NCBI GenBank assembly: GCA_016235445.1
Contig: JACRLB010000004.1
Span: forward strand, 1 to 64,000
Reading direction: 5' to 3'
Source of the DNA: Chloroflexota bacterium
GTDB taxonomy: Bacteria > Chloroflexota > Anaerolineae > Anaerolineales > Villigracilaceae
DNA: 64,000 nucleotides
Numbering within the stretch: the first letter of the stretch is position 1; each line of letters starts with the position of its first letter. The notes under the pieces were generated by a model. That model was not told where the DNA came from. It searched no databases and saw only the letters and a program-made list of their open reading frames with translations. The translations under genes and the position numbers were made by a program. Positions 1,375 through 38,655 of this stretch are shown here, one piece after another.

Positions 1375-1486
1375 AATCAGGCTTAATTTCTTGAAATCAT
1401 AACCCGATGCCATCAACGGCAACTACTACGAACTGACAAATGGCACAGTCACGAAATACTACTTCGCAGGGACGTCCCGCATTGCC

Positions 1487-2182
1487 ATGAGTAAATACAC
1501 CATCCCGGAAACCATGAAAGTGGAATATTTCCTGAGCGACCACCTCGGCTCCACCAGCATGACGACCGACAGCACGGGAGCAAAGGTCTCGGAGATGAGA
1601 TATAAGCCCTGGGGCGAAGTCCGCTACTCGTGGACAAATGACACCCTGAACGCGAATCCCGCCTACGCGTTGACCAGATACACCTTCACGGGACAATACT
1701 CCCACATGGACGACCCGTCCACACCCGCGAGTGAGGGATTCGGCTTAATGCACTACGGCGCAAGGATGTACGATCCCGCGTTAGGACGCTTCACCTCCGC
1801 CGACACCATTGTCCCTGGCGGGGTGCAGGGGTATGATCGCTATGCGTATGTCAATAACTCGCCAGTTCGATATACGGACCCGACTGGTCACATTGGGTGC
1901 GATGAAGATTTAAATGGGAAATGTATCAGCTATGGGTATAAAGATAAAGGGTCGTTTCAGAATGCTGCCCAGACACTAAACATTTACGTAGAGCAAGATT
2001 GTACACAAATACTATCTTGCGTCAGTCTAAAGAGCAAAGTAGCGAGATTCTTAACTATACCCAGCGCGGTCACAAATTGCGCTTTTTCAAAAAAGGGGGA
2101 AAGCGCAATTTGCAACCGTGGGTATTATAGACAAAGCGAAATATCTTCTTTACATATCTGCTTGGTGTATCTAACCAGATAA
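1487..2182 (+). CDS. Displaced Rhs tip 2 (orphan cassette)
   Basis: Rhs core homology begins just after an in-frame TAA at 1400-1402 and runs without a start codon to the ATG at 1487, so this looks like the 3' end of an rhs gene copied without its 5' part. It holds the FLSDHLGSTS and MRYKPWGEVRY blocks, GRFTSADTIVPGG and RYAYVNNSP, then a DPTGH junction. The tip after the junction is only ~96 residues, Cys-rich at its start, and contains a 69-base imperfect palindrome (2057-2125) that may have cut an originally longer domain. A three-helix membrane protein follows. It may be silent unless recombined onto an expressed rhs gene. Confidence 0.75.
   Translation: MSKYTIPETMKVEYFLSDHLGSTSMTTDSTGAKVSEMRYKPWGEVRYSWTNDTLNANPAYALTRYTFTGQYSHMDDPSTPASEGFGLMHYGARMYDPALGRFTSADTIVPGGVQGYDRYAYVNNSPVRYTDPTGHIGCDEDLNGKCISYGYKDKGSFQNAAQTLNIYVEQDCTQILSCVSLKSKVARFLTIPSAVTNCAFSKKGESAICNRGYYRQSEISSLHICLVYLTR
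2057..2125. repeat. Imperfect palindrome inside Rhs tip 2
   Basis: Two ~31-base arms, each containing an AAATTGCGCTTT-type block in opposite orientation, enclose a short A/G-rich loop. A sequence like one arm (AGCGCAATTTGTGACCG) recurs near 36295, so it is a dispersed repeat rather than ordinary coding sequence. There is no T-run, so a terminator is unlikely. Confidence 0.6.
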
Positions 2183-23833: not shown

Positions 23834-24074
23834 GCGGCTACGCTCCTAACCTGAGGGTTGGAAAGATATTATCAGTTTTTCGTGAACAACATGCAGACAA
23901 ATGTACTATTTACCTACGGTTTTCTCAAAATCTGAAAATCTTTAACGCGAATGGCGCGAATGAAACGAATGGCGCGAATTTTTCTGTATTTTCGCGAAAT
24001 TCACTCAGTTTGCGTAATTCGCGTTAAGCCTTTGCCATAAACTTGTAAAATGGTCAAGCTACTTTGAGAAAGCC
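23834..24074. other. Intergenic spacer with an inverted repeat
   Basis: No gene supported. TTAACGCGAAT (23942-23952) and ATTCGCGTTAA (24017-24027) are exact inverted copies and bound an ~86-bp palindromic element. The longer gene-free stretch continues to 24273 with the element at 24075. Confidence 0.6.
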
Positions 24075-24277
24075 GTAACTATTTTGACAATGTCACATTA
24101 AGACTGAAACCAAAGTACAAAACCACAAAGGCACGACACTTGCGCCGCACTGCGTTTGTTGCAGTGCAGGTGAGTGTCACGAAGGAAACCTTCGTTTTTA
24201 GCCTTTTGCTCTCCTTTGTGCTCCTTTGTGGACTTTGTGGTAAAGGTTTTGAAATGTGACATTGTCAAACTATTTAC
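24075..24277. repeat. ~203-bp MITE-like element, GTAAC-end family, copy 1
   Basis: The ends GTAACTATTTTGACAATGTC and GACATTGTCAAACTATTTAC are near-perfect inverted repeats. The same element lies inverted at 36082-36285. An independent hairpin (24135-24178, GCACTGC-GTTTGTT-GCAGTGC core) is nested in its left half. The right end overlaps the GH3 gene, whose TAA stop (24274-24276 on the minus strand) lies within it. Confidence 0.85.
24135..24178. repeat. Nested hairpin element in MITE copy 1
   Basis: About 44 bp: CACTTGCGCC-GCACTGC, loop GTTTGTT, then GCAGTGC-AGGTGAGTG. The same unit occurs at 36142-36182 but at a different point of the host element and in the opposite relative orientation. Confidence 0.8.
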
Positions 24278-27006
24278 CTGCGCGACCAAAACCAGCCGCC
24301 GACAAAGCCGATCAACTCCCCTAGAATTACAAAAATGATCACGCCCAATATGCCACTGCCTGCCATCCAGTTGGTAATTCCAAACAGGCCGAGGGCCAGG
24401 AAATTATAGGAAAGCAAACCGCCAAGTAAAATCCCCAGCGCCCAGCGGACGGCGGAACGGCGATTCGCAATCCGCAGGATGGCGCTGTAAGCCAGCCATG
24501 CAATCAGCAAAATGACCGCCATGGCAATGGCCCAGGCAGAGAAGCGCGGAAATCCATCATCGGAAATATAGGGATTCGTTTCCTCGATAACCTCCACCAC
24601 GGCAGTCGGTTCAATGGACTGGGTTAGTTCTGGCACAACCACCGTCACCGCTACAGCGCCAGATTGCGAAACGTCCAATTGCAGTACCAGCGAATTGACA
24701 GCGGGTTCGCTGGAAACGCGGATTTCCAAAAGACCGGGCTTATCCAACCCAAAGGATGCGCGCGCCACTCCTTGCGTTGTGACGGATTCCTCCTGCTGTA
24801 AAATGCCGCCGCCTTCCCCGGTCAACAGCATGGAAAATTGCACAACGGTCCCATCTGGAACGGGGTGGCCGTTGCCATCCATGATGGCCCCGGTGCGGAT
24901 GGCGATGGTGTCGCCGATTCTAAAGAGTGGCACGGGAGTCGGCTCGGGGGTAAGCAAAGAGCCGGGGGTAACAGGAGCAGGCGGCAGGTCCAGAAAGAGC
25001 GGAATAATCTGCCCGGCGTCCGGGGCCATGATGGTGTTCAAGTCATAGCCAACTGCCGAGACCGAGACCGGGGATGCGCCGACAGGCGTCATTTCTTGAA
25101 AGAGCAATCGTGCGGCGACATCCACAAATTGCGGTTGTTTGCTGTAGAGCGCGTAATAGGCGGTGAATTTCGAGATGGTGGTGGTGTCGAAATAGTAGGG
25201 CGCGCCGAAGGAAAACAGGACGATATTTTTTTCACGCAAAAGGTCGGGGCGTTCGCGCAGGAAGCGGCTGATGAGGGCGGGTTGTCCATTCGATGCGTCG
25301 GTGACGGAGATGACGATCCAGTCGGTGCGGTCGATACTCTCGATCATGAATTGATTATCGTCCGGGGTGTCGAGCAGGGCTTGTAAATTCTCAAACGAGT
25401 AGGAGGTGAGCCTGAAGCCTTCGGTCTGGTTTCCGCTTTGGGGGCCGTACAATTGCAAAATAACGCTCTCGAGCGCATCTGCCGCGAACAAGGGCTGGGA
25501 GATACATTCTGAGCATTGTTTTACATTGACAGTATCGGTCAGAAAGACGAGGCGTTCATTGGACTGGGGCGGCAGGGGCATGACGGATGTCAAGTCGGCG
25601 AGGGCGGGGCTGATCAAGGTTGCAGAATTGCGAGCCACGGCAAAGGTAATTGCCGTATCCGCGCCCAGTTCAGTCAATTGTGCGGGGTCTTGCAATACAT
25701 TGCCGAGGATAAAATTATCGTACAAATCGAATTTGGCAACCAGAATGCGCGCCACAGACGCATCCACCCGCTGGGCAAAGGCGGGATCTTCGTTGTATTT
25801 CTGGATGAAGAAATCAATGATACGGGTGGTGGTGGTAAATGAATCGGGTGCATCGCTGGAAACGATATTGCCGAGGTTGAGCACATCGTTGCCTGCAAGG
25901 AAGGCATCCCGTGCGGCGACGCGGGCAAAGAACTGGCCGCCGCCCGAAGCGTAAAAGTCGCTGACAGACGGGGCGCCAAGGTTGTCACTGACGATTAGGC
26001 CGCCATCGGCGTACCAGTCTGCAAATTGAGGTAAAGCCAGTATCTGGGTCAAGGCCTGCGAATCGAAGCTGATCGGCCTGGTTGTGGCGCGGATATTTCC
26101 CTGGAAGCCCTGGTAACGAATGTGCGAAACGAGCAAGCCGTCTACGGTGGCATCTTCAGAGAGTGCGTTTCCTGTTACTGCAAAGAAGGGCGCAAGTTCG
26201 ATCTGTTTCAATTGTTCCAAAGATTTGCGGACAGTGGAAACTTCCTGCTCGGGCAACCGTTCTGCGCCGCCAACCCCGGGGAAGTGTTTGGCAATGACAA
26301 GCAGTTGATTTTCACTGCCTTTGTGCAGGCCGTCCACGTAGGCGCGGCTCATCTCGCCCACCCAAAACGGATCGCCGCCAAACACGCGGGAACCTAGATC
26401 ACTGCCCGAGGAAGACGGCGTTTCCAACACATCCAGCGAGGGGCCGATCTGCAAATTAAAACCAAGAGCGGCAAGCTCGCGTCCGCGCACCTTCCCCACC
26501 TGTTCGGCAAGGTCTGTATTCCAGGTTGCGCCAATCGCCATCTCGTTCGGCAAAGGAGTCAGCCCATCAAAAATCTGGTCTGTGGGATACCCGTCCCCAT
26601 CCTGGGTGACGCCAACAAAAAGCGGCACATAAGTGGAGGTAACATTTTTTCCCGTTTGGGGATCTTCAATCGGCGTAACTGCCGAATCCCACTCCAGGCG
26701 TTGAAGCGCCTCGATCAGCGCGTGAGTTTGCGTGGGCGTATTCGTCCCCGAAAAATTATCATTTTCCAACATCAACGTCACGCCGCCCACATGATAATTT
26801 GCAATCAAATCATAGATTTGTGAAGCGGCGCTTGTATCCGTGCCATTAAAGGTAACAAGGAATAACTGCCCAACCTTTTCCTCTGGCGTCATCTCATTCA
26901 AGATGAGCCGAATACCAGGTGGAGGCGTGGAAGTCTGCGCCAGCGCCGGCAGAGGCGCGAGCGACAAAAGAATAATAACCAGCAAAAAAGTTCGGATCAA
27001 ACGCAT
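24274..27006 (-). CDS. GH3-family beta-N-acetylhexosaminidase-like protein, membrane anchored
   Basis: 910 residues. Signal peptide (~1-23), then a GH3 N-terminal barrel: EEKVGQLFLVTF, FNLQIGPSLDV, IAKHFPGVGG (~239) and GLIVSDNLGAPS (~332-343), whose Asp matches the GH3 nucleophile. The NagZ acid/base loop (DSH after KHFPG) is not evident; the sequence there is AERLPEQEV. A second domain follows, then Ig-like sequence, and three C-terminal membrane segments over the last ~100 residues. Likely acts on cell-wall or extracellular amino-sugar glycans. The stop codon lies in a repeat element. Confidence 0.8.
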   Translation of the reverse strand: MRLIRTFLLVIILLSLAPLPALAQTSTPPPGIRLILNEMTPEEKVGQLFLVTFNGTDTSAASQIYDLIANYHVGGVTLMLENDNFSGTNTPTQTHALIEALQRLEWDSAVTPIEDPQTGKNVTSTYVPLFVGVTQDGDGYPTDQIFDGLTPLPNEMAIGATWNTDLAEQVGKVRGRELAALGFNLQIGPSLDVLETPSSSGSDLGSRVFGGDPFWVGEMSRAYVDGLHKGSENQLLVIAKHFPGVGGAERLPEQEVSTVRKSLEQLKQIELAPFFAVTGNALSEDATVDGLLVSHIRYQGFQGNIRATTRPISFDSQALTQILALPQFADWYADGGLIVSDNLGAPSVSDFYASGGGQFFARVAARDAFLAGNDVLNLGNIVSSDAPDSFTTTTRIIDFFIQKYNEDPAFAQRVDASVARILVAKFDLYDNFILGNVLQDPAQLTELGADTAITFAVARNSATLISPALADLTSVMPLPPQSNERLVFLTDTVNVKQCSECISQPLFAADALESVILQLYGPQSGNQTEGFRLTSYSFENLQALLDTPDDNQFMIESIDRTDWIVISVTDASNGQPALISRFLRERPDLLREKNIVLFSFGAPYYFDTTTISKFTAYYALYSKQPQFVDVAARLLFQEMTPVGASPVSVSAVGYDLNTIMAPDAGQIIPLFLDLPPAPVTPGSLLTPEPTPVPLFRIGDTIAIRTGAIMDGNGHPVPDGTVVQFSMLLTGEGGGILQQEESVTTQGVARASFGLDKPGLLEIRVSSEPAVNSLVLQLDVSQSGAVAVTVVVPELTQSIEPTAVVEVIEETNPYISDDGFPRFSAWAIAMAVILLIAWLAYSAILRIANRRSAVRWALGILLGGLLSYNFLALGLFGITNWMAGSGILGVIIFVILGELIGFVGGWFWSRR

Positions 27007-27045
27007 AAGTTCTCTTATATCATATCCCGTGTGCTTCCAGAATAT

Positions 27046-27156
27046 TAAACTTTATCGGTAATTAGAAAAAACGTCCCGAAGGTTGTTATCAGGTGTTCAA
27101 ATTCCTCAAGAAAAACCTTCGGGACGGTGCCTGTGTTTTATTTCCGATAACGTCTA
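27046..27156. repeat. 111-bp palindromic element, TAGAC-end family with CGTCCC core, copy A
   Basis: Ends TAAACTTTATCGGTAAT and ATTTCCGATAACGTCTA enclose the core hairpin CGTCCCGAAGGTT and AACCTTCGGGACG. It is nearly the same as 56868-56978. It lies just upstream of the GH3 gene start on the opposite side of its promoter region. Confidence 0.9.
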
Positions 27157-27265
27157 TTTTATGCAACTCGCAACCAGAATAAACGGACGCCGCTCATTGA
27201 ACGGCGTCTCTTGCGGATATTCGCTTCGCTCCCCGCCCGGGCTTGCTCCCGTCATTCAGACACAT

Positions 27266-28066
27266 TCACCCGCCCCGGCCCAGCGCCCGCAAAGCGGCGG
27301 CGGGGTCATCGGTAAAAATTCCATCCACGCCCCAATCCTTGAGCCGATGGATTTCCTCGGGTGTGTTGGCCGTCCACACGTGGACGCGGCGTTGGAGGCG
27401 GTGCGCCCTCTGCATCTGCTCCCTGCTCGTGCTGGAGATATGCGGATGCAAAGCCTGGTAATTACCGAACATAAATCCAAACGAACGCGCCCACAAACCC
27501 AGCAGGCCCGGTGTGGCAAGCAGGCCGCGCGGGGCTTCGGGCATGGTCTGTTCTGCAATCTTTAAATTGGACGCAAAGAACGATGAAAAGATAATCTGCT
27601 TTTGGTTGTTGTGTTTCTTAATCAACTCGCATACTTTTTGGGTCAGCCCATCACGCGGGGTGGAGTAATTGGTCAACTCGATGTTGATCAATGCATCCTC
27701 CCCCACCGATTCAAAGACTTCTTCCAGCAACGGGACTTTTGTGCCTGCGAATTTTTCGTCGAACCATGCCCCCGCATCCAGTTTGCGAATTTCATCGAGG
27801 GAAAAAGATGCAACTTTTCCTTTGCCATTTGTGGTGCGGTCTACCGTTGAATCGTGAATGACGATAATATGGCCGTCGGAGGTCAGTTTTGCATCCAGTT
27901 CCACGCCGTCTGCGCCTTTTTGGATGGCTTGGATAAATGCTGGCAGGGTGTTCTCCGGCGCATGTGCCTGGTCGCCGCGATGGGCAAGGAGGATGGGGTT
28001 GGGAAAATTTTCAAGCATCAGAATCAGTTGTCGGTTAAGGTTGAGGCGATGGAAGTACGACAACAT
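27266..28066 (-). CDS. Glycerophosphodiester phosphodiesterase
   Basis: Up to 266 residues; an internal ATG at 28018 (MLENFPNPIL) is an equally good start. GDPD motifs: LLAHRGDQAHAPENT (HRG with catalytic His), GADGVELDAKLTSDG (metal Glu and Asp), VIHDSTVDRTTNGKG (second catalytic His), and C-terminal VHVWTANTPEEI with WGVDGIFTDDP. No signal peptide, so a cytoplasmic enzyme releasing glycerol-3-phosphate from deacylated phospholipids is likely. It follows the AAA ATPase gene on the same strand by ~40 bases. Confidence 0.92.
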   Translation of the reverse strand: MLSYFHRLNLNRQLILMLENFPNPILLAHRGDQAHAPENTLPAFIQAIQKGADGVELDAKLTSDGHIIVIHDSTVDRTTNGKGKVASFSLDEIRKLDAGAWFDEKFAGTKVPLLEEVFESVGEDALINIELTNYSTPRDGLTQKVCELIKKHNNQKQIIFSSFFASNLKIAEQTMPEAPRGLLATPGLLGLWARSFGFMFGNYQALHPHISSTSREQMQRAHRLQRRVHVWTANTPEEIHRLKDWGVDGIFTDDPAAALRALGRGG

Positions 28067-28107
28067 TCATGTTGTCCATGCGCAAGATAAATCTTGCGGT
28101 ACTCCTT

Positions 28108-29436
28108 CTAAATATCCACGAAGTAGGCTTTGCCAGCGTGATCGATCATCTCGCGGGACATGACGGGCGGGACGGCAAGGTAGGAGGCGATGTCTACGAT
28201 CTGGTCGCATAAATCACGCGGGTGCGAGGCGCGCATTTTGCGGTTGCGTTTGATGTACCATTCCTGTAAAAGATAGGCGAGGCCCTGGTCGTTGTATTCG
28301 ATGCGCCGATCCTGGGCAACGCGCTTGAAGATTTCGCGGTATTCTTCGAACGTTGGGTCGCCGATTTCGATCTTGTGGCGCAGGCGGCGCAGGAAGGCTT
28401 CGTCCACCAGGTCTTTGGGCGGCAGGTTCGTGGAAAAAACGATGAGCACATCAAAGGGGACTTCCACTTTGCGGCCCGTGTGCAGGCGAAGATAATCGAG
28501 TCGGTTTTCGAGCGGTACGATCCAACGGTTGAGCAGATCACGCGGACGAACCTGCTGGCGGCCAAAGTCATCGATGAGCAGGATGCCGCCGTTGGCTTTC
28601 ACTTGAAAGGGCGCTTCGTAGAATTTGGTGGTGTCGTCAAAAACGAGGTCGAGGCCTTCGAGGGTCAACTCGCCGCCAACGACGATGAACGGCCTGCGAA
28701 TTCTTACCCAGCGCGGGTCGCGGCGGGTGTTCGTGCGCAATCCGCCTGTGGAGGCTCCATTGGCGGCTTCAGTATCTGGCGCAAGGCTGTGGCTGACCGC
28801 GTCATATACTTTGATAACCTGTCCATCCAAATATAAGGCGTAGGGAATGTACATGTTCTGGCTGAGGACCAGGTTGCCGAAGGCGCGGGCGATGCTGGTC
28901 TTGCCGTTTCCGGGCGGGCCATACATAAAAATGGATGATCCTGAATTAAGCGCAGGCCCAAGCCGCTGGAATGTGGATTCTGAGATTACCAGTTGAGAAA
29001 GGATCTGGCGCATGGTGCGGGTGGTGACGCTTAGTCGTCCGCTTTTCTGGCGGCGGATGGCTTCGTTGTACACTTCAAACGGCACAGGCGCGGGGCCTGC
29101 ATATTGACTGCGTTCCATTGCTTCGCGGGCGCGCAGAATGCCCTGGCTTGTAATGCCGTAGGTGTATGCGCCTTCTCCCAGGCCGCCCTGGGATGATTTC
29201 ACTTCGATAAATTTTTCCTGTTTTAACGCGACCATTAACTGGTCGGTTACGCCTGCAAAAGGCAGGGTAATTTCCTCGGCGATCTTGAACCCGGTCAAAT
29301 AGCCGCGGAAGTACAGAACTTTAAGGATCAGGTCTTGCAGCCAGAGCGGGGAAAGCCCTGTGTCCTCAAGGCTGTTGATCTGCGGGGGTGAAAATCCGCC
29401 GGCGGCTCCTGCAATTTGTCCTGTTTGTTTCGTCAT
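28108..29436 (-). CDS. AAA ATPase with N-terminal winged-helix-like region
   Basis: About 442 residues using the ATG at 29436; an in-frame ATG at 29454 is the alternative. The N-terminal ~100 residues resemble a winged helix (LILKVLYFRGYLTGFKIAEE). The ATPase has Walker A GPPGNGKTS (~172), Walker B ILLIDDFGR, sensor region VFSTNLPPKDLVDEAFLRRL with an arginine-finger-like RRLRHKIEIGDP. C-terminal helices end in a YLAVPPVMSREMIDHA block. The partner or substrate is not indicated by its neighbours. Confidence 0.82.
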   Translation of the reverse strand: MTKQTGQIAGAAGGFSPPQINSLEDTGLSPLWLQDLILKVLYFRGYLTGFKIAEEITLPFAGVTDQLMVALKQEKFIEVKSSQGGLGEGAYTYGITSQGILRAREAMERSQYAGPAPVPFEVYNEAIRRQKSGRLSVTTRTMRQILSQLVISESTFQRLGPALNSGSSIFMYGPPGNGKTSIARAFGNLVLSQNMYIPYALYLDGQVIKVYDAVSHSLAPDTEAANGASTGGLRTNTRRDPRWVRIRRPFIVVGGELTLEGLDLVFDDTTKFYEAPFQVKANGGILLIDDFGRQQVRPRDLLNRWIVPLENRLDYLRLHTGRKVEVPFDVLIVFSTNLPPKDLVDEAFLRRLRHKIEIGDPTFEEYREIFKRVAQDRRIEYNDQGLAYLLQEWYIKRNRKMRASHPRDLCDQIVDIASYLAVPPVMSREMIDHAGKAYFVDI

Positions 29437-29498
29437 AATGGTCACCAATCCCATGCGGGCAAGAATTTTTTTAAGAACGATTTTGCTGCCGTATATGC

Positions 29499-29576
29499 AA
29501 ACCCTAAAGGTCTGTCTGGCATTCGTACAAGCCCAATTAACAAAAGAGACCTACGCCCTGTGGGTTAGGGTTTTTT
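29499..29576 (+). promoter_or_regulatory. Possible structured leader/attenuator ahead of the GT2 gene
   Basis: AACCCTAA (29499) pairs with TTAGGGTT (29565) and AGGTCT pairs with AGACCT inside it. The outer stem is followed by a run of six T, about 70 bases before the glycosyltransferase start. It could be a transcript terminator or attenuator; TATAAT at 29630-29635 gives a possible downstream promoter with a very short leader. Confidence 0.4.
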
Positions 29577-29644
29577 ACGAAGGATATGTACGGTAGAGAG
29601 ACAACAAATCAATTATACTTCTTTTCGTTTATAATCCAGCGCAT

Positions 29645-30328
29645 ATGAAACTATCGGTCATAATCCCTGTTTACAATGAAGTTGAAAGTATCGAAACCAT
29701 CTTAAGACGCGTTTACGATACAAAGTTGACGCACGAGATCATCGTCGTAGATGACGGCTCGAAAGACGGCACACGCGACCTGCTAAAGGAAATAAACGGC
29801 AAAATGGGTATTCGCGTCATCCTGCACGAGAAAAACCAGGGCAAAGGCGCGGCGGTGCGTACTGGAATGTCTGCCGCAAAGGGTGATATCCTCCTGATTC
29901 AAGATGCCGACCTTGAATATGATCCGCGCGATTATCCCGAATTGTTGAAACCCATCCACGAAGGACTTGCGGATGTGGTCTACGGCTCGCGCTTTCTGGG
30001 CCGCGCCCATCGTGTGACGATGTTCTGGCACATGGTCGCCAACAAATCGCTGACCCTGATGACCAACATCCTCTACGACACGATTCTTACTGATATGGAA
30101 ACCGGTTACAAGGTGTTTCGCCGCGAAGTGATCGAAGGCATGGTCATCCGCGCGAACAGTTTTAACTTCGAGCCTGAATTCACCGCGAAAATCCTCAAAC
30201 GCAGGTATCGAATTTTTGAAGTGCCGATCACCTTCAACCCGCGCGATTACACCCAGGGCAAGAAGATCAAACTCCATGACGCCTTCGAAGCCATCTGGGC
30301 GCTCATCAAATACAGATTTGTTGAATAA
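29645..30328 (+). CDS. GT2 glycosyltransferase, polyprenyl-phosphate sugar synthase-like
   Basis: 227 residues. SVIIPVYNEVESIETIL opens a GT-A fold; VDDGSKDGT binds the nucleotide sugar, QDADLEYDPRDYP carries the metal-binding Asp, and MTNILYDTILTDMETGYKVF with EPEFTAKIL is the acceptor side. These fit the dolichol/polyprenyl-phosphate mannosyl- or glucosyltransferase group. No C-terminal membrane segments. Acts at the inner face of the membrane, supplying lipid-linked sugar. Stand-alone gene with its own terminator. Confidence 0.9.
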   Translation: MKLSVIIPVYNEVESIETILRRVYDTKLTHEIIVVDDGSKDGTRDLLKEINGKMGIRVILHEKNQGKGAAVRTGMSAAKGDILLIQDADLEYDPRDYPELLKPIHEGLADVVYGSRFLGRAHRVTMFWHMVANKSLTLMTNILYDTILTDMETGYKVFRREVIEGMVIRANSFNFEPEFTAKILKRRYRIFEVPITFNPRDYTQGKKIKLHDAFEAIWALIKYRFVE

Positions 30329-30330
30329 AA

Positions 30331-30358
30331 AAGACGGGCTTGATTGCCCGTCTTTTTA
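30331..30358 (+). terminator. Terminator of the GT2 gene
   Basis: AAGACGGGC and GCCCGTCTT stem with TTGATT loop and T-rich tail. It abuts the stop of the convergent minus-strand gene and may serve both. Confidence 0.88.
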
Positions 30359-30817
30359 TTTAAACAAGCGGACGAAAACCGACTCCAACCCGTCCAACGA
30401 ATTGCGAACCGCCTCAGACAAGCCTCTGCCTGTTGACGTGGCGCCAGGCTGGATCGCCACGAGAAGCGTTTCCGGTCTCCTGCTCTTTGGAATCACCTTG
30501 AACAGCAAATCCAAATTTGCCGAATGGGTGGAAACGCCAGCCTTGCGAATATCCGCAAATTCGATCAGCGCGATCTCGCCCGGAGCGGCGTTGAAATCCG
30601 CCGCATCCACGATCAACACCATGTTCGCGCCCGATGATTCGATGCGGTCGATGCAATTCTCCGGCACATCGCCTGCATCCAACAGGGGAACTTTCACCTT
30701 CTTCTGCAACCGCTTGATCAAATACGAACCAACCCCGTCATCTCCGCGTGAGCGATTCCCCACTCCCAGCAAAAGAACGTTTTTATCTTCAATGCGCGTG
30801 TTGAGTTCTTCAAACAT
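30356..30817 (-). CDS. Hydrogenase maturation protease family (M52, HycI-like)
   Basis: 153 residues, the usual length. LLLGVGNRSRGDDGVG is the family signature, with the metal-binding acidic residue in GDDGVG; a second block LIVDAADFNAAPGE supplies another metal ligand (Asp in VDAAD), and STHSANLDLLF supplies the His. These proteases trim the C-terminus of the [NiFe]-hydrogenase large subunit. No hydrogenase gene is in the window, so its substrate must be encoded elsewhere. Confidence 0.88.
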   Translation of the reverse strand: MFEELNTRIEDKNVLLLGVGNRSRGDDGVGSYLIKRLQKKVKVPLLDAGDVPENCIDRIESSGANMVLIVDAADFNAAPGEIALIEFADIRKAGVSTHSANLDLLFKVIPKSRRPETLLVAIQPGATSTGRGLSEAVRNSLDGLESVFVRLFK

Positions 30818-30888
30818 GAACTGGTATTCTACGTTGAAACTGGGAAATAAGAACTTACAGATTTAATAGGCCGCCCTGTAAATAAAAA

Positions 30889-30926
30889 AAACGGGTTTGG
30901 AAGGAGTTCCTTCCAAACCCGTTTTA
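30889..30926 (-). terminator. Terminator of the S41 peptidase gene
   Basis: A long perfect stem (AAAACGGGTTTGGAAGGA with TCCTTCCAAACCCGTTTT) lies just past the minus-strand stop and is followed on that strand by a run of T. Confidence 0.93.
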
Positions 30927-30931
30927 CCTGC

Positions 30932-33427
30932 TTACGGCTTTACGAAAACGTTATATTCCAGAATGTAGTCGCCAGCCTGATAATCCGCGGAACCATCGTT
31001 GATGGCGGCGGTGAAGGTGGCCGCAATGGACATTGTGTGTTCGCCAGCCGGCCATTTACTCAGCGCCGTGTAATACAGCCTGCACCACTGACCGCCGTTC
31101 TCGAGGTCTTCCTGCCGCAGTTTGTCCAGCGCCACATCCTCTCCATCGAGGGTGAACTTCACTTCGATATTCTCGAAGTTCTGGTTGAGCACTTCCTTCG
31201 TGGAAGTACACCACGCATACATCCAGATTATCGTCTCTTCTTTCACGAGCGGGACAGTGTACGTCAATGTGCCTGGCACGGCATAATCCTCAGATTTATA
31301 CTCCTCCCGCGCCAGGTCTTCAAGGAATCTCTTGCCTGAAGAAAACGCAGATGAAGCCGCCGCCGCGCTGGCCAACTCCGGCGGACCGGAAGGCGTGATG
31401 CCCGCGCCCAAAGGCTGGCTGATCGCCCGCTCGGCAAAGGCGAGGACAACATCCTCCCCATTGAATTGCTGGAGGAGAGTCTCAGCCGTTACGGGGACTC
31501 GCAAATCGGGCACAACGCCGCTTCCTTCGAGGTGGATGTTGCCCTCCGCATCCATGGCGCGGCCAATCGTCATCTGGGTGTAGATACCCTCCGGCATGTA
31601 GAAACCTTCCACACTGCCGCCCGCCCCTTCCGAGGGATATTGACCAACCACAATGGCACGGTCGTTGATCGTCATGTTGTAGGAGAAGAATTCGCAGGCG
31701 CTCGCGCAGTTCGGGCCCACCATCACCACAACCTGCCCACTGTACTGAAGTTGTTCGCGCGGCGGGATCATGGTTTCTTCGTAGTCCGGGTCGATGAAGA
31801 AATCACCAGTGCTGTCATCGTAATAAGCGGTTTGCCCAACCACAAGCTCTTCGTTGAAGAAATAAGCCGCCATCTGGTCTGCCAGCCAGCCACTGCCGCC
31901 GCCGTTGTTACGCAGGTCGAGGATCACGCCGCCCACTTCATTCTCGTTGAAGTACTGCATGGCTCGTTCCCAAACCAGGATGGAAAGCAGATCATTATCG
32001 GAGAAGCTGGAAATCTTAATATAGCCGTATCCGCTCGGTAAAATTTCAAACTCGACGGGCAAAGCTGTGGGGTCAACCCCAGCGCGGAAGGAGGAGAAGT
32101 TGAAGCTGTCGAACTCATTGGAAAGCTCGAGAGACACCGTCTGCTCGGAAGCTTCGGGGTTCTTGAAAGTCAATTCAACCGCGCCCTTTTCAAGGCGGAA
32201 GCGGGTTGCGTAGCGCAGTTGTTGCAGGCGCCTGATCTCCGGGTTGCTAAACGGGGAAGACCAGGGCACAGTCACTTCGACCACATCCGCAGTGGAGACT
32301 CCGTCAAACGAAATGATCTCCGCGCCCCAAACCATTCCAGCCTCGGCGGCCGGGCCGCCTTCCAAAACAAAGTTGGCAATGAATTTTCCGTCATCCGTTT
32401 CGCGCATGGCGAAGCCCAGGCCGCCAGCCGTATCCGTCTGAAAATCATCGTTCAGCAGGGATGAATCAAAACCAACGTGCGTGTCTGGAATTGACCAGAG
32501 AAAATCGCGCAGGGCCAAAGCGTAGGCATGGCTGTCTTTCTTCTTCTCGGCCTCTTCAAACAGCGGACGGAACTCCCTGCCTTTCGCATCCCAGTCGATC
32601 TTCTTCAATTCGGTGAAGGCATATTCATTCTTGAACTTCTCGAGCATCTTGTCGAATGCTTCGGTATATGAAAGCGCAGAGAAGTCATCCGCCGCGGAGC
32701 CTTCCGGTTCGAGCAGGGCAATTTCAGGCTCTGCCGAGCGGTCAATGCTAAAGGGAGTCTGATCCAGATCGATGACCGACCAGCCCGCAGGTAAATCCAT
32801 GATCGGGTCGTCATCCGTAAATAATTTTTTGTCGTCGCCAAATCCAGAAGGGAAGGATTGTCCGCCATCTGGCGCGTACACCAGATACTTGCCGCCGAAG
32901 ACCTCGAGATAAAAATCGCTGTCATCGCTGACGTTGGTGGAGGCATACGCAGAAGACCAGCCGCCGCCGCCCTGATCGCGGCGCTCGAGGAATGGGTCGC
33001 CCCAGGTATTCGTCCAATAGGCCACGGCAAAAACCATCACACCCGTCTCGTCAGAGCCGTCATGATCCACATCATGCAAAGTGCCATTCGGTACTTCGGG
33101 CAGGGTCAGGCTGTAGGTAAAAGGTGATGTATAAAAATCCGAAGTGATCTGCCCGATCACCTGCGACTCAACGGGAATTAAAAACTTGCGATCGCGGGTC
33201 ACAAAGCCGCCCTGATCTTCAAGAATGATCACAGGTTCCGCCACACCCATCGTGAAAAACGTATTGGTGTATGTTACAGCGCCAGTGACAATTTTCGGCC
33301 CCGTGCCACTGCCGGCGGTTTCCTCCGTCGCGGGCGGCGTATCCGTCCCGGTCTTGGGGGCACATGCGGCAAGCGCCAAACTTATCATAACCAGAAAAGC
33401 AACAACTTTAAACAGATGTGATTTCAT
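30932..33427 (-). CDS. S41-family (tail-specific type) peptidase lipoprotein
   Basis: 831 residues from the ATG behind a perfect AGGAGGT; upstream frame is not coding. Lipobox LALAAC. The N-terminal ~250 residues are an unrecognised beta-rich region. A PDZ-like region (AMRETDDGKFIANFVLEGGPAAEAGMV) precedes the S41 core: VGGVILDLRNNGGGSGWLA and VVVMVGPNCASACEFFSYN, with the nucleophile Ser in ASACE. The C-terminal ~170 residues are another unassigned domain. An outward-facing, membrane-tethered protease. Confidence 0.88.
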   Translation of the reverse strand: MKSHLFKVVAFLVMISLALAACAPKTGTDTPPATEETAGSGTGPKIVTGAVTYTNTFFTMGVAEPVIILEDQGGFVTRDRKFLIPVESQVIGQITSDFYTSPFTYSLTLPEVPNGTLHDVDHDGSDETGVMVFAVAYWTNTWGDPFLERRDQGGGGWSSAYASTNVSDDSDFYLEVFGGKYLVYAPDGGQSFPSGFGDDKKLFTDDDPIMDLPAGWSVIDLDQTPFSIDRSAEPEIALLEPEGSAADDFSALSYTEAFDKMLEKFKNEYAFTELKKIDWDAKGREFRPLFEEAEKKKDSHAYALALRDFLWSIPDTHVGFDSSLLNDDFQTDTAGGLGFAMRETDDGKFIANFVLEGGPAAEAGMVWGAEIISFDGVSTADVVEVTVPWSSPFSNPEIRRLQQLRYATRFRLEKGAVELTFKNPEASEQTVSLELSNEFDSFNFSSFRAGVDPTALPVEFEILPSGYGYIKISSFSDNDLLSILVWERAMQYFNENEVGGVILDLRNNGGGSGWLADQMAAYFFNEELVVGQTAYYDDSTGDFFIDPDYEETMIPPREQLQYSGQVVVMVGPNCASACEFFSYNMTINDRAIVVGQYPSEGAGGSVEGFYMPEGIYTQMTIGRAMDAEGNIHLEGSGVVPDLRVPVTAETLLQQFNGEDVVLAFAERAISQPLGAGITPSGPPELASAAAASSAFSSGKRFLEDLAREEYKSEDYAVPGTLTYTVPLVKEETIIWMYAWCTSTKEVLNQNFENIEVKFTLDGEDVALDKLRQEDLENGGQWCRLYYTALSKWPAGEHTMSIAATFTAAINDGSADYQAGDYILEYNVFVKP

Positions 33428-33444
33428 ACTACCTCCTTGAAAAT

Positions 33445-33472
33445 TTGACCCATTATAATGCCGAAGTATAAT
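33445..33472 (+). promoter_or_regulatory. Promoter for the small HEPN-like gene
   Basis: TTGACC and TATAAT with a 16-base spacer. Transcription would start at or next to the ATG at 33480, suggesting a leaderless transcript. Confidence 0.6.
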
Positions 33473-33479
33473 GACCCGC

Positions 33480-33800
33480 ATGAATTCACAAATCGAAGCA
33501 GAGTTTGATCGAGCCGCGCAAGCCCGCGCAAAAAACAACGAGGGACAGGCGCGTGTTTGCGCAAGACGCGCCGCAGGCATTGCCATACGGGATTATCTCA
33601 CCCGCAGAGGGACTCACATCCCAAGCAGTAGCGCGTACGATCTGCTTAATCTGATCAAGGAAGATACGCTTCTTCCCCCTGATATGAAGCTGGTCGCTGA
33701 CCATTTGACATTGCGCGTCACTGAAGAATTCAAACTCCCGGTAGATGCAGACTTGGTCGCCGATGCCCGCCTCTTGTGCGACTGGTTATTAAATAACTGA
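33480..33800 (+). CDS. Small helical HEPN-like hypothetical protein
   Basis: 106 residues, entirely helical by composition: AEFDRAAQARAKNNEGQARV, RRAAGIAIRDYL, then SAYDLLNLI and LRVTEEFKLPVDADLVADAR. The length and helix pattern recall HEPN-domain proteins, though the catalytic RxxxxH motif is not seen. An in-frame ATG at 33471 is an alternative, but the promoter places the transcript start near 33480. Divergent from the S41 gene; no antitoxin-like partner is adjacent. Confidence 0.55.
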   Translation: MNSQIEAEFDRAAQARAKNNEGQARVCARRAAGIAIRDYLTRRGTHIPSSSAYDLLNLIKEDTLLPPDMKLVADHLTLRVTEEFKLPVDADLVADARLLCDWLLNN

Positions 33801-34153
33801 TGGTACGTAAAAGCACCATGACCCCGAAGGGGTCAAATGATTATAGTTTTTGGGGGTGCGGCAAATTCAACCCCGAAGGGGTGTCACTGCTCTTAAAATC
33901 AATGTCATCCCCGGGATTATGGACTGCATAAGGTGAGTGAATAAACTGCGTAACATCAGTTAAATAACTCACCTTACGCGCCCTCACCCTACCCTCTCCC
34001 GAAGGGAGAGGAGACTCCCTTCCCCTTCGGGGGAAGGGCGGGGGATGAGGGAGAGAAACTGCGTAAGGTGAATTAAATAATTAGACCCAAAAGGTTTTAC
34101 GAAGTTCCCGATAGGGGAAAACCTTTTGGGTCTTGAATTAGTTGCAATAACAC
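33801..34153. other. Intergenic region with repeats
   Basis: No gene. It holds CCCCGAAGGGGT repeats near 33820-33885, the unit running from GCGTAACATCAG to CACCTTACGC (33944-33979) shared with 7111 and 38840, a CTCTCCCGAAGGGAGAG hairpin near 33990, and the perfect hairpin at 34083. Confidence 0.55.
34083..34133. repeat. Hairpin with 16-bp perfect arms
   Basis: AGACCCAAAAGGTTTT and AAAACCTTTTGGGTCT are exact inverted copies. It lies downstream of the sigma-factor operon and could act as its 3' structure, although no T-run follows. Confidence 0.75.
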
Positions 34154-34423
34154 TCAGCCCTTGCGCCCAGCCAGGTAATAGAAAGCGCGCGCAAGGGTAA
34201 CCAGCAAAAGCATCCCAGACAGTACGCCGCCCAGAACAAAGAACATCCTGCGCCAGTCTGTCAGGCGCAGTGTAATCTCCCGTCTCGTGGGCATTTGAAT
34301 ACGCCCGCGCAGGCGTTGGACAATGTCGCTCGGAGGGGTGAGCGGCTTCAAGGTCCCGGCCAGATGCGCTTCGAGTACATCCAAATTTTCTTCGCGAGTC
34401 AAATCCATCTTACGTTTTGCCAT
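34154..34423 (-). CDS. Small single-pass membrane protein of the sigma-factor operon
   Basis: 89 residues: a basic, helical N-terminal half (TREENLDVLEAHLAGTLKPL) then one membrane segment (~62-82). No zinc-binding HC2 motif. As the third gene after an ECF sigma factor and a DegV protein it is a candidate membrane regulator of the sigma factor, but this rests on position and topology alone. Confidence 0.65.
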   Translation of the reverse strand: MAKRKMDLTREENLDVLEAHLAGTLKPLTPPSDIVQRLRGRIQMPTRREITLRLTDWRRMFFVLGGVLSGMLLLVTLARAFYYLAGRKG

Positions 34424-34436
34424 TCTGTTCCCTTGA

Positions 34437-35279
34437 TTATTCGATGGGATAAAGGATCAAGCCAACTGTGCCCGGGCCCAGGTTCGCCGCAATGGAAATG
34501 GACAACTCACCCAGCATCGTTTCTTTATGATTGAAATGGCTCTTTGCGTCATCCAGCAGAGCCTGCCCCGATTTCTGGTCGCGGGCATGTACAACCGCCA
34601 GGTACACCGGCTGATTCCCAAATTCCTCTTTTGCCATTTCAATTACGCGGTCGAGTGCGGCTTTGCGGGTGCGAACTCGTTCAGCCATATTAAGATCGCC
34701 ATCGCGCAATACGGCAATCGGTTTTACATTCAAAAGGGATGCCAGCGCCGCTTGCAGGGTTTTTACACGACCTGACATTTTTGCGTATTCGAGAGTATCC
34801 AAGGTCAGGATGACGCGGATTTTACGTTTGATGGTTTCCAAATAAGCCACGATCTCTTCGACGCTTTTGCCTGCGCGTTCCAATTTTCTTGCTTCCCGGC
34901 ACATCAACCCAATACCCAGCGAGCCGACGGCAGAGTCCATCGGAATGACATTGAACTCGCCCTTTAATTCCTCGGCGGCAGAAACTGCGGAGGTGTACGT
35001 GCCGGAGAGTTTGGCGGTAATGTGAATGGAGAGGATCGTATCGCCCTTTTGCGCCACCTTGCGGTAAAACTCGACAAATTGATGAGGCGATGGCTGGGAG
35101 GTTTTCGGAACACGTTTGCTTTCATCCACCAATTTGTAGAAGCCTTCGTTGTCCAATTCCACCCCTTGAAGATAGGATTTTTCCCCAAACAAAATATTGA
35201 CAGGGATCGTATCGATGCCAAATTCCTTTTCCCATTCGGGAAGGATATCGGCTGCGCCATCGGTCACAATTCGTAACAT
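34437..35279 (-). CDS. DegV-family fatty-acid-binding protein
   Basis: 280 residues, normal for DegV. IVTDGAADILPEW is the N-terminal signature, followed by TSQPSPHQF, LSIHITAKLSGTY and MDSAVGSLGIGLMCREA, all lining the fatty-acid site. The C-terminal domain includes YLAVVHARDQ. DegV/FakB proteins present fatty acids to a FakA kinase; no kinase is adjacent. The start is 3 bases after the sigma-factor stop, so they are co-translated. Confidence 0.92.
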   Translation of the reverse strand: MLRIVTDGAADILPEWEKEFGIDTIPVNILFGEKSYLQGVELDNEGFYKLVDESKRVPKTSQPSPHQFVEFYRKVAQKGDTILSIHITAKLSGTYTSAVSAAEELKGEFNVIPMDSAVGSLGIGLMCREARKLERAGKSVEEIVAYLETIKRKIRVILTLDTLEYAKMSGRVKTLQAALASLLNVKPIAVLRDGDLNMAERVRTRKAALDRVIEMAKEEFGNQPVYLAVVHARDQKSGQALLDDAKSHFNHKETMLGELSISIAANLGPGTVGLILYPIE

Positions 35280-35282
35280 GGT

Positions 35283-35855
35283 TTACTCTCCTTCAAGATT
35301 TAAGTTTTGATCTTCCAATTGGTCGCGAAGAGCCAGAAGAGTGCGGTGGTAAAGGCTTTTTACCGCTCCTTCACTTCTTTTCATAATTGCGCCAATCTCT
35401 GCGTTTGACATGTTTTCAACGAATTTCAGGATTAATAGATTTTGGCGTTCAGGCGGGAGTTTGCGAATCATCTTCAACAACGCATCCTGTTCCTGGGAGC
35501 GGACGAGGTTTTTTTCGGGATGGTCACCCTTCGCCGGCAGGATGGGCAGGTCATCCAGTGGAATCTCCTGCTTGCGGCTGCGGTCACGATGCCAGTTTGC
35601 AACGAGATTGTGGGCAATGCGATACAGCCAGGCTGAAAATGGAACGCCGCGGTCTGTATAATTCTTGATGTGGTTCATCGCCCGCTGGAACACGCGGGCT
35701 GTCAGGTCCTCTGCGTCGTGGAGATTCCCAGTCCGGTAGTAAACATAATTGAAGATGCGCTCCACGTAGCGTTCGTACAATTGACCAAACGCATCACGAT
35801 CACCCTGCGAGGCAAGGGCCAGCACTTCCTCTTCGTTGTATTCCAGTTCCGGCAA
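35283..35855 (-). CDS. ECF-type RNA polymerase sigma factor
   Basis: 190 residues with a TTG start. Region 2: FGQLYERYVERIFNYVYYRTG, HDAEDLTARVFQRAM and FSAWLYRIAHNLVANWHRD. Region 4: LPPERQNLLILKFVENMSNAEIG with IMKRSEGAVKSLYHRTLLAL, the helix-turn-helix. No region 3. First gene of a three-gene operon with DegV and a small membrane protein. Confidence 0.92.
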   Translation of the reverse strand: MPELEYNEEEVLALASQGDRDAFGQLYERYVERIFNYVYYRTGNLHDAEDLTARVFQRAMNHIKNYTDRGVPFSAWLYRIAHNLVANWHRDRSRKQEIPLDDLPILPAKGDHPEKNLVRSQEQDALLKMIRKLPPERQNLLILKFVENMSNAEIGAIMKRSEGAVKSLYHRTLLALRDQLEDQNLNLEGE

Positions 35856-36081
35856 GTTGATAACCTTACCGGCGGGTTTGAATTAAATAACACCGCCGGA
35901 TTTGAGAAGTTGCACCGAGTATAACATGCGTAATTATTCGGATATGAGAAGCATATTTTTAGCTCGCCAAAAATGGAGAGTGTAAAAACGGTTGGTATAA
36001 TCCAAAGTCGTCGAAATAAGGGTCTTCAGGAGTTGACCTGATTTCGTACACAGGTTTCACGGACGACTGTACTGAAAAAAG

Positions 36082-36285
36082 GTAACTACTTTGACAATGT
36101 CACATTTCAAAACCTTTACCACAAAGTCCACAAAGGGGCACAACACTTGCGCCGCACTGCGTTTGTTGCAGTGCAGGTGAGGAGAGCAAAATGCTAAAAA
36201 TCAAGGTTTCCTTCGTGTTGCTTGGTACCCTTTGTGGTTTTGCACTTTGGTTTCAGTCTTAATTTGACATTGTCAAAGTAGTTAC
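36082..36285. repeat. ~204-bp MITE-like element, GTAAC-end family, copy 2 (inverted)
   Basis: GTAACTACTTTGACAATGTC and GACATTGTCAAAGTAGTTAC are exact 20-bp inverted ends. The body is the reverse complement of the element at 24075, except that the nested hairpin is at a different position. Confidence 0.88.
36142..36182. repeat. Nested hairpin element in MITE copy 2
   Basis: The same GCACTGC-GTTTGTT-GCAGTGC unit as 24135-24178, inserted at the opposite arm of the host element. Confidence 0.8.
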
Positions 36286-36351
36286 GAAAAAAGCGCAATT
36301 TGTGACCGTGATGAGTATAATTTGAAAAAGCCTGCTCAAAGGAATTTTCCA

Positions 36352-37263
36352 ATGAAAAAAATTCTGTTTCTTATCCTTACCGCCTTTCTCACAGCCTGCT
36401 CTTCATCCTCATCGCAGGTGACAGTCACCTCCGAGGTGACTGTCACCTTGCCGCCCACCACAACACCGCTCCCCACGTTGACGCTAACCCTCATTCCTGC
36501 TTCTCCCACCCCCGAACAACCCACCGAAACAGGCCCCTCCCCCGAGCAGATCGCCACAATCGAGGCGCACAACGAGGCATGGAATGGCGTGCTGAGCATC
36601 AACGAAGAAAACCAATTCCTCAACAAGGCGGGCGAGGTGGTCACGGGACTGGTGTATGACCCTGCGACGGGCATGATAAGGATAACCCGCGCCGACGCGG
36701 CGGGGCATGACTTTACCGAGCAGTTTGACCCCAAGCTGATCGTCGTAGAGACAGATGATGATGGGGTAATAGATGAAACAATTAACTATGTGTTTAGCCT
36801 GGGCGAGAATGGGCAGTTGGAAAGATTGAAGTATGGTGAGACGAGCGAGTATCTCTATACTCAGGACGAAGTGTTGCAAATGGTTGCCGAGAACCATAGC
36901 ACCGCGCCAGGAGCAGATTTGGATACGTTGGCACATGGCAAAGAAATATTGAGTAATTTCCAGGTGAAAGACGCAACCGGTACAACTTGGTATATAAAAT
37001 TTGGTGACTTTTACGAAGAGCAAGGGAGTGTGGGGGGGAGTTTTTTTGGGACAAATAAAGTAAAAATCTGGAATAGTGAAACACAAAAAGAAGAAGTAAT
37101 AGATACTTCTGAGTATGTTGGAGTTGGTTTTGGCGGAAAGGACGGAGATTCGAGTTATGCAGTGATAGTGTGGATTGGCGCGGACGGGAAACCGAATATA
37201 AAAATAGTTCACGGTAGCAAAAAGACAAATCATAGTTCTGGTTGGTGGGGGATAACTGAGTAG
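36352..37263 (+). CDS. Lipoprotein of unknown function
   Basis: 303 residues from the ATG behind AAAGGA. Signal with lipobox LTAC, a Thr/Pro-rich linker, then a beta-rich body containing VYDPATGMIRITRADAAGHD and a C-terminal FGGKDGDSSYAVIVWIGADG block. No family recognised. First of three closely spaced genes for secreted or membrane proteins at 36352-38655. Confidence 0.7.
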   Translation: MKKILFLILTAFLTACSSSSSQVTVTSEVTVTLPPTTTPLPTLTLTLIPASPTPEQPTETGPSPEQIATIEAHNEAWNGVLSINEENQFLNKAGEVVTGLVYDPATGMIRITRADAAGHDFTEQFDPKLIVVETDDDGVIDETINYVFSLGENGQLERLKYGETSEYLYTQDEVLQMVAENHSTAPGADLDTLAHGKEILSNFQVKDATGTTWYIKFGDFYEEQGSVGGSFFGTNKVKIWNSETQKEEVIDTSEYVGVGFGGKDGDSSYAVIVWIGADGKPNIKIVHGSKKTNHSSGWWGITE

Positions 37264-37924: not shown

Positions 37925-38655
37925 AAATTAAGTTGTGGCGGATGCTAATGGTGATTGGTTTAATTTTCACACTTTTTGCAGTATTTAGAGACGAGCATGT
38001 TTACGCTTTTGATGATAATTGTAATGGGACTTGTCCTGTGGGGACGGTGTGCCAGGAGGTGGGACCAGATATATGGCAGTGTGAGCAGGAGGGGACTACA
38101 CCGACTCCGACACCGCCGCCGAATGATGAGGTGTGTGGGGACTCGGCGGCGCCTGCTTGCGGAGGGTATTGCTCCACATCATCATCATCGTGCGTGACGA
38201 CATCTTCTAATCCCACTTGCCACTGCTCAGGCAACGCCCCTGGAGCGCCCCAATGCAGTGGGACACAAGTAGTCAAAAGTTATGATCCGATTGGGACGCT
38301 CAACAACAATGGTTGTAGTTTCGCTGACGGTTGCTGGAGCTACTTCCCCTCTGTCCACACTGCGACGGGGTGCGACGGCAAAGACGTGAAGGGGATATGC
38401 AGAGTCAGCTACCTATGTTGCAACGCTAACCAGGTCATCTCATGCACTACAGGGGCAAATGATACGCACGAAATATCTGGGACAGCCTGCCCCGCAGGGG
38501 AGATGAAGTCCTCGGCCAGGACGAGCTTTTACTGGACAACAGACAACCCCCCAGAGCGCGTCACCAACTATACTGGGCGCGGTCAGGAACTGCGCTTTTA
38601 TTCAACAGGGATTCGGCGGGCTGAAGCCCTGCCTCAGTACGTTGAAGTCGGCTGA
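37921..38655 (+). CDS. Cys-rich secreted protein, 3' end replaced by a repeat
   Basis: 244 residues as read. Signal peptide (~1-29), then ~25 cysteines including CNGTCPVGTVCQEV and a Pro-Thr linker. The last ~29 residues (from YTGRGQELRF) are encoded by the 142-bp repeat at 38568-38709, not by the original gene. Cys-rich sequence of the same style resumes right after the repeat (NCGCVATCNATAPTGLTITK, 38713-38775), so the gene was probably longer and has been split. Coupled to the preceding gene. Confidence 0.65.
   Translation: MKIKLWRMLMVIGLIFTLFAVFRDEHVYAFDDNCNGTCPVGTVCQEVGPDIWQCEQEGTTPTPTPPPNDEVCGDSAAPACGGYCSTSSSSCVTTSSNPTCHCSGNAPGAPQCSGTQVVKSYDPIGTLNNNGCSFADGCWSYFPSVHTATGCDGKDVKGICRVSYLCCNANQVISCTTGANDTHEISGTACPAGEMKSSARTSFYWTTDNPPERVTNYTGRGQELRFYSTGIRRAEALPQYVEVG

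Follow-up and report, generated by a model that had tools for sequence, protein, structure and literature searches.

A 36-nt hairpin nested in two copies of a miniature inverted-repeat element, a probable mobile micro-element of Anaerolineae

Introduction

The window analysed here is a stretch of 64,000 nucleotides (nt) from a Chloroflexota bacterium (assembly GCA_016235445.1, contig JACRLB010000004.1, positions 1 to 64,000). It contains two copies of one miniature inverted-repeat transposable element (MITE) in opposite orientation, each with the same small hairpin in a different arm. How did one hairpin come to occupy two places of one host? The original prediction held that it either moved independently into each copy or was flipped by recombination between the arms of the palindromic host. 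Our analyses indicate that the hairpin is most probably a non-coding mobile micro-element of 26–47 nt, belonging to an Anaerolineae family and inserting without target duplication. To our knowledge, whether DNA units of fewer than 40 bases transpose, and how, has been an open question since such repeats were described.

The host MITE and its hairpin insert

The genome around the window comprises 4.13 Mb in 55 contigs. The two elements of about 203 bp had been described as reverse complements, and three blocks (I3, I4 and I5) are indeed 95, 95 and 92% complementary. The 203-bp unit is a real repeat, but a composite one, consisting of an empty MITE of about 151 bp, a 36-nt insert and flank. The MITE proper is bounded by TTTGACAATGTCA...TGACATTGTCAAA. 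The features of the two copies are as follows (loci and genomes are cited by our L and G numbers).

24083..24269, plus strand: host MITE copy 1, AAGACTGAAACC end first, with the 4-bp direct repeat CTAT at 24079-24082 and 24270-24273
36090..36277, minus strand: host MITE copy 2, in reverse orientation
36082..36102, plus strand: left inverted end of MITE copy 2, including flank, perfect with 36265-36285
36265..36285, plus strand: right inverted end of MITE copy 2, including flank, perfect with 36082-36102
24137..24172, plus strand: 36-nt hairpin insert at site L of MITE copy 1, junction GGCACGA|AGTGTCACG; empty, for example, in L019 (GGGCACGA|AGTAACACG)
36144..36179, plus strand: 36-nt hairpin insert at site R of MITE copy 2, junction GGGCACAA|AGGAGAGC, same sequence as in copy 1; empty, for example, in L015, L019, L029 and L030

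A DNA search with MITE copy 2 returned 115 matching pieces in the genome. Among the 26 copies measured, the empty MITE spans 151–153 bp (L015, L019, L026, L030), and those with one 36-mer mostly span 187–192 bp. Copies with 36+27 nt reach 214 bp, those with 36+39 nt 225 and 226 bp, a single 63-mer gives 216 bp, and three inserts (36+27+26) give 240 bp. Small or larger deletions cause L009, L017, L020, L022, L023, L025 and L037 to depart from these sums. An exact 4-bp direct repeat flanks 18 of the 26 copies, in 17 cases of the form xTAx. These lengths and repeats show that the host is an ordinary MITE, with the terminal inverted repeats and short target repeat of the DDE type, and that the hairpin is an insert in it. 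Copy 1 is flanked by CTAT/CTAT. Copy 2 lies between CTAC and GTAG, without a direct repeat, and its inverted ends, correctly predicted to be perfect, therefore extend into the flank; this copy is perhaps a recombinant of two others.

The complementarity of the two MITEs is broken by a direct repeat (D8, 45 nt, 98%; 24130-24174 and 36137-36181) that contains the hairpin. With up to three mismatches allowed, the window contains exactly two occurrences of the hairpin core, where shuffled sequences lead one to expect 0.02. The prediction had put its length at about 42 bp; it is present in both copies as said, but measures 36 nt. Each insert starts 54 nt inside the nearer end of its MITE; the two positions mirror each other but lie in arms of differing sequence.

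Across the MITE copies, site L reads GGCACGA|AGTGTCACG, with variants, and site R GGGCACAA|AGGAGAGC. Only the left site is filled in window copy 1, L035, L038, L039 and L040, and only the right in window copy 2, L002, L003, L006, L007, L009, L011, L012 and L013. Both sites are filled, always by different hairpins, in L005, L008, L010, L014 and L018, and neither in L015, L019, L026, L029 and L030; the remaining copies are cut short or unclassed. A regular-expression tally, which counts distinct flank contexts and undercounts copies because equal flanks merge, gave 35 matches for site L (10 filled and 25 empty; of the empty ones we accept 9 as genuine and attribute the remainder to similar repeat sequence) and 27 for site R (16 filled, 11 empty). 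In the MITE copies read, the orientation of the hairpin is constant relative to GCACRA|AG; the tally, which matched one orientation only, says nothing on this point. Inversion between the MITE arms is excluded by the arm-specific junctions of the inserts: each lies in the sequence of its own arm, in the same orientation to the local GCACRA|AG. The predicted flip by recombination is thereby set aside.

A 63-nt nested hairpin, composed of a second-family element within the first family (see below), also stands at site L in L160 and L161. It may have moved whole, been copied between arms, or arisen by two insertions at the same loop position.

Copies beyond the MITE and a second family

The prediction called for a genome-wide search for hosts without the hairpin and for hairpins without the host, and both were found. 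The core of the window hairpin, here family 1, occurs at 31 places in the genome at up to two mismatches, compared with none for a reversed control pattern. A covariance model built from 12 elements gave 107 matches at E<=10 in the 4.1-Mb genome, 87 of them at E<1e-4, as a lower bound with 150 of 4259 candidates scored. The hairpins occupy not only the MITE but also a CATTGCGAGG repeat, TTCGTG-type repeats, GCGAA|TTACGC contexts, unique DNA and genes. Another sequence, CCCTGGCACCGCCCGCCAGGGCAGGTG, defines a second family, with 25 places at up to three mismatches (control 0). It sits in the family-1 loop (GTT|TGTT) at 15 of these and elsewhere at 10. The reverse nesting, family 1 in the family-2 loop (GCCA|GGGC), was seen in other genomes in 5 of 119 elements (L180, L189, L200, L218, L233).

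In all, 208 places were grouped into 97 flank clusters (60% identity over 40 nt), 30 of them represented by a copy from the window's own genome and 67 by one from elsewhere. The commonest lengths among the clusters are 27 nt (33), 36 nt (31), 26 nt (9) and 33 nt (6). The common form has a six-base 5' leader (CACTTG or CCCTGG) followed by a hairpin whose stem is closed at its base by CRCC/GGTG and whose 3' side has a single unpaired A. When folded as single-stranded DNA, the commonest 27-mers of the two families share the best structure ......((((((((....)))).)))), in which the leader precedes a hairpin that carries a single bulged A. A competing hairpin, formed by the leader with the 3' arm, comes within about 1 kcal/mol in either family's 27-mer. 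Stems are longer in the 36-mer and the 33-mer, whose layout is otherwise the same.

Taken together, the copies outside the MITE, the empty MITE sites and the doubly filled MITEs support in substance the claim that the hairpin moved independently, and the gapless empty orthologous sites of family 2, described below, support it further; we regard hairpin mobility as well supported. Not all of that claim survives: the hairpin is separately mobile, but the copies are not strictly each a separate event, and multiplication of the MITE will have passed one insertion on to many of its copies. The prediction had also reasoned that a hairpin confined to two mirror positions would point to inversion. The MITE sites do mirror each other, but the outside copies and the doubly filled MITEs answer this concern.

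Two further observations concern related hairpins. A third family (CCTGCACCGTGCAGCAGGCACGCGTG), similar in layout, was seen in L014 and L020. At about 1490–1530 of L049, a copy forms a near-perfect palindrome of its left half, CACTTGCGCCG standing on either side, a pattern that copying of one arm from the other would produce.

Clean insertion at a short target

Three genes allowed filled and empty sites to be compared. A CASTOR-like ion-channel gene (named from Pfam) is 27 nt longer in the window's own genome than in the relatives examined. When its flanks are joined, they align without a gap to all seven orthologues fetched, out of 12 matching relatives, at 72–91% identity. The joined flanks of a methyltransferase gene are likewise gapless against all 11 orthologues fetched, at 74–89% identity. 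Both comparisons concern family 2. For family 1, a 37-nt element (L052) interrupts a repeated gene at GCCA|TGGG, and an empty paralogue stands in the window:

1445..1560, plus strand: empty homologue of the filled L052 site, which lies elsewhere in the genome; 92% identity over 116 nt

Empty family-1 sites of matching length are also found in the MITE copies. Wherever an empty counterpart was compared, the insertion is clean, with no target base doubled or lost. The gapless empty sites therefore define the element borders as CACTTG (or CCCTGG) and GGTG.

The target is short. In the 84 family-1 clusters, the base before the element is A in 74 (background 0.247, p 2e-34) and the base after it is A or T in 79 (p 5e-19). 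The sites comprise 40 A|T, 32 A|A and 6 T|T, with A|A or A|T in 72 of the 84. The excess of A|A over T|T, 32 against 6 (p 2e-5), shows that the orientation of family 1 is biased by the target. Ten of the 13 family-2 clusters have T|T, eight of them as TT|TG. Given that T|T is A|A on the other strand, both families may share one kind of target in opposite orientation. Palindrome centres are not preferred overall (see Discussion), although three single sites (L176, L192, L085) look like insertions there.

Insertions in genes

At 32 of the 208 places, a frame is open for at least 45 codons on either side, although most are unproven as coding. Among ten proteins scanned, four have a Pfam domain spanning the element: an EPSP synthase (L254), a Mutator transposase (L261), a molybdopterin oxidoreductase (L223) and an alanine racemase (L127), in the last of which a whole repeat surrounds the hairpin. 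The EPSP synthase has 17 extra residues at the element in both alignments to solved structures, about ten of them supplied by the element. With the CASTOR-like and methyltransferase orthologue cases, six genes bear an insertion.

No stop triplet occurs on either strand in 65 of 75 distinct elements, as against 16.7 expected from shuffling, and the length is divisible by three in 75 of the 97 clusters, counts that are not independent as the elements share descent. The 37-nt insertion at L052 is not a multiple of three. Elements free of stop triplets and with a length divisible by three would survive best because some land in genes. In L116, L119, L254, L261 and L223, the in-gene elements all run antisense to the gene and are read in the same phase (TPAL...).

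Spread among genomes

A pattern scan of 84,980 species gave at least 113 stretches. Among the matches listed, 77 of 80 titles are Chloroflexota, and many name Anaerolineae or its orders. Chance seems to account for the matches in Chitinophaga (L187) and Bryobacterales (L215), and transfer or misbinning may explain the exact 36-mer seen in a bin of Verrucomicrobia (L240). Under strict filters, at least 24 of 150 genomes of the class, own included, match at E<=1e-4, and at least 13 of 301 genomes of the phylum at E<=1e-5, of which 12 belong to the same order. Across the genus (25 genomes including its own, E<=1e-3), copy number ranges from 0 (G153, G160, G172, G181) up to 64 (G176), 65 (G179) and 90 in the window's own genome.

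Ten viral contigs match the hairpin. Six of these matches look real (L413 and L419, which are alike, L415, L416, L420 and L422) and four look like chance; the six contigs, classed as viral, are a possible vehicle between hosts. The 207-bp MITE with its hairpin found no match among plasmids and phages, where the hairpin alone was not searched. Rfam gave no match at the gathering threshold in 23900–36500.

Y1-domain genes in the genus

Y1-domain matches are present in 39 of 41 genomes, and the window's own genome has six such matches. One of the six, at 1307-3105 of L063, is a 553-aa Y1-domain gene; one element each of families 1 and 2 follow its end at 65 and 114 nt, within a CATTGCGAGG repeat. 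Similar large Y1 loci of the genus (L334, L336, L337, L338, L339, L400) and outside it (L329, L331) have no element in the stretch scanned. Density alone predicts 0.07 elements within 500 nt of a large Y1 gene, and in view of the eight similar loci without an element we read the L063 linkage as chance. A Y1-domain protein of 528–593 aa (an open frame of 811 in one genome) was matched in 22 of the 25 genus genomes, a breadth suggestive of a host function. All five of the highest-copy genomes contain the L065-type Y1 group; it is also found in the low-copy G154, G174 and G178, and was not found in G151, G152, G155 and G158. G170, 85% complete, has three copies of the hairpin and no Y1 match. At L318 and L319, where contig ends cut the Y1 gene, the whole loci were scanned and revealed no element.

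Several of the Y1 genes examined bear other hairpins of their own. In L061 (962-1404), a Y1 transposase gene lies beside tandem hairpins, GCCGTGGGATGAACCCCACGGC and GCGGGGTGGTTTACCACCCCGC, which are REP-like (REP, repetitive extragenic palindromic) and unlike the present element. Genes resembling REP-associated tyrosine transposases (RAYTs) in L345, L350, L356, L369, L371 and L374 are accompanied by GGTGACAGTCAC...GTGACTGTCACC hairpins, which seem to form a distinct REP family of the genus.

Discussion

Our comparisons of filled and empty sites lead us to view the hairpin as an insertion unit in its own right. Its movement would depend on a trans-acting enzyme able to recognise the strand in its folded, single-stranded form and to join both element ends into a nick or a single-stranded target. 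A usual DDE transposase would leave a target duplication. The lack of a duplication and the orientation bias would fit single-strand transposition of a folded element, and by analogy with IS200/IS605 the enzyme could tentatively be placed among the HUH (Y1) single-strand transposases. It is possible, if doubtful, that the reaction is an undescribed one, in which a folded strand of 26–47 nt is inserted bluntly at A|W (W being A or T), with target-biased orientation, no duplication and in-frame passage through genes. The hairpins would then be among the smallest transposing DNA units.

Several results weigh against this account. No movement was observed directly, and most sources are metagenome bins. 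No enzyme for hairpin movement was found when Y1 linkage and gene-carrying relatives were examined. No element lies within 500 nt of any of the 75 Y1 genes examined, 3 of them poorly extracted, out of 110 genus matches, the remainder being mainly the 528–593-aa class and fragments. Nor was a gene-carrying version recognised: 1.35 Mb of loci, overlapping in part, yielded 49 orphan left halves, and genes between the halves were not examined. For five of the 49, a same-strand right half lies no more than 4 kb away; L129, one of the five, is an element with a variant end, and in the other four the left half is not preceded by the usual A. The conserved target of only one or two bases is looser than the four to five bases of IS200/IS605, and palindrome centres are not enriched among the 97 clusters (mean stem score 3.37 versus 3.22 at control offsets; two sites scoring at least 8 versus 2.2 expected). 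The folds are unexceptional against shuffles (z -0.7 to -2.1), and the reverse-complement strand folds about equally well (-8.6 versus -8.1 kcal/mol for family 2, -5.9 versus -5.6 kcal/mol for the family-1 27-mer). The rarer 27-mer of L014 and the 39-mer have other best folds. The shared descent behind the stop and length counts belongs here as well.

These gaps leave room for other routes. An RNA-mediated one, in which an RNA copy of the hairpin becomes joined into DNA or mRNA and then undergoes reverse transcription, would accord with the tiny size, the bulged fold and the insert-tolerant loops, and clean insertion would fit reverse splicing. We nevertheless consider it unlikely, given that no reverse transcriptase match (PF00078) was found in G173 (98% complete, 34 copies), G158 (19 copies), G151 (79% complete, 16 copies) or G171 (71% complete, 11 copies), although the enzyme could have been lost after the spread and the last two genomes are incomplete. 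The hairpins also resemble REPs in size, bulged fold, high copy number and intragenic copies, and might be REP-like elements whose movement relies on a RAYT or on some other Y1-domain protein found in the genus. The broad occurrence of Y1 genes, the large class in most genus genomes, the two elements adjoining L063 and the L065-type group in the highest-copy genomes speak for such a protein. Against it stand the other 75 Y1 genes, none flanked by the element and some carrying different hairpins, the eight large-Y1 loci without one, the copies of G170 and the distribution of the L065 group. Furthermore, the tags of REPs are rare at an element end, taken as its last 6 nt with the adjoining 4 nt of flank: GTAG or GGAG occurs in 6 of 208 and CGTC, the tag of the second superfamily, in 0 of 208. 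Movement by a Y1 protein of this REP-like kind thus appears quite improbable.

That the hairpin has no mobility of its own, being an old part of the MITE shuffled by gene conversion, deletion and arm inversion, would explain why the two MITE sites are exact mirror positions, and the 63-mers in both sites may record exchange between arms. However, the copies in unique DNA, in genes, in other repeats and in other genomes contradict it, as do the gapless empty orthologues and the MITEs filled at both sites by different hairpins, and it is extremely improbable. An artefact of assembly or binning, which the predominance of metagenome bins might suggest, is virtually negligible, as the same boundaries recur in many separate assemblies, including contigs of 341 kb (L222) and 731 kb (L202 and L224). 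A small hairpin with its own mobility therefore remains our preferred explanation.

Which known elements does it resemble? IS200/IS605 elements are hairpin-based, insert in one orientation without target duplication and have a fixed target of four to five bases at the left end. The present hairpins are like these and their non-autonomous derivatives in fold, clean insertion and orientation. The absence of target duplication is shared with the derivatives similar to palindrome-associated transposable elements (PATE-like), but not their fixed target, only the A at -1 and the A or T at +1 being strongly conserved. Moreover, the hairpins have no pair of left and right hairpin ends and no transposase identified by linkage. 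The small dispersed repeats (SDRs) of Nostoc, reportedly described by Elhai and colleagues in 2008, are said to be 21–27 nt long, to share a common fold and to lie in minitransposons and in each other; they are reportedly confined to one lineage and mobile, with no known enzyme, and RNA-mediated spread is said to have been proposed for such cyanobacterial repeats. Our hairpins are likewise very small, nested in minitransposons and in each other and restricted to one lineage. They are dispersed units of about 20–40 nt in which families of different sequence have a common fold, with exceptions, and occur within related elements and within the MITE. They differ from the SDRs as reportedly described in phylum, in their size of 26–47 nt, in the A|W target, in the gapless empty orthologues and in the in-frame insertions.

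The part of PMC3733652 that treats small palindromes defines REPs by GTAG or CGTC tags, and describes these REPs and the Rickettsia palindromic elements (RPEs) as 20–40-bp palindromes of high copy number, some in frame within genes. The hairpins resemble the elements of that description in all these respects, but a GTAG/CGTC tag is not the rule, no RAYT is consistently linked, and the two families are reciprocally nested. Yeast mitochondrial GC42 is, in the portion of PMC4478555 on this cluster, a 42-nt GC-rich palindrome with lineage-specific copy number and merging units, whose amplification mechanism is unknown. It resembles the present hairpins in each of these traits as given there. Unlike the abundant yeast GC clusters, which the same portion describes as flanked by AG or ACT direct repeats, the hairpins here are bacterial, lack a duplication and have the A|W target. 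Thus, we class them with the very small mobile hairpins, nearest to the SDRs of Nostoc, and not as REPs. Our literature search found no report of such elements in Anaerolineae; the tables of the RepRanger paper, as far as they concern Anaerolinea thermolimosa and Ardenticatena maritima, give repeat counts that may include these hairpins.

The base-level borders, the target rule, the empty sites, the range of 0–90 copies per genus genome and the two families of one fold open the mobilising enzyme to a search by comparison and to tests in vitro. In addition, the in-frame insertions are a source of new protein loops.

Other repeats in the window

Between 1410 and 6921 of the window, direct copies of 74–300 nt with 79–100% identity extend across a run of genes, which we take to resemble YD-repeat/Rhs genes. 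An inverted pair of 145 nt (38565-38709 and 43975-44119; 98% identity, 5.3 kb apart) belongs to another repeat family, and further families are represented by an 83-nt pair (55040-55122 and 55806-55888) and a 111-nt direct pair (27046 and 56868).

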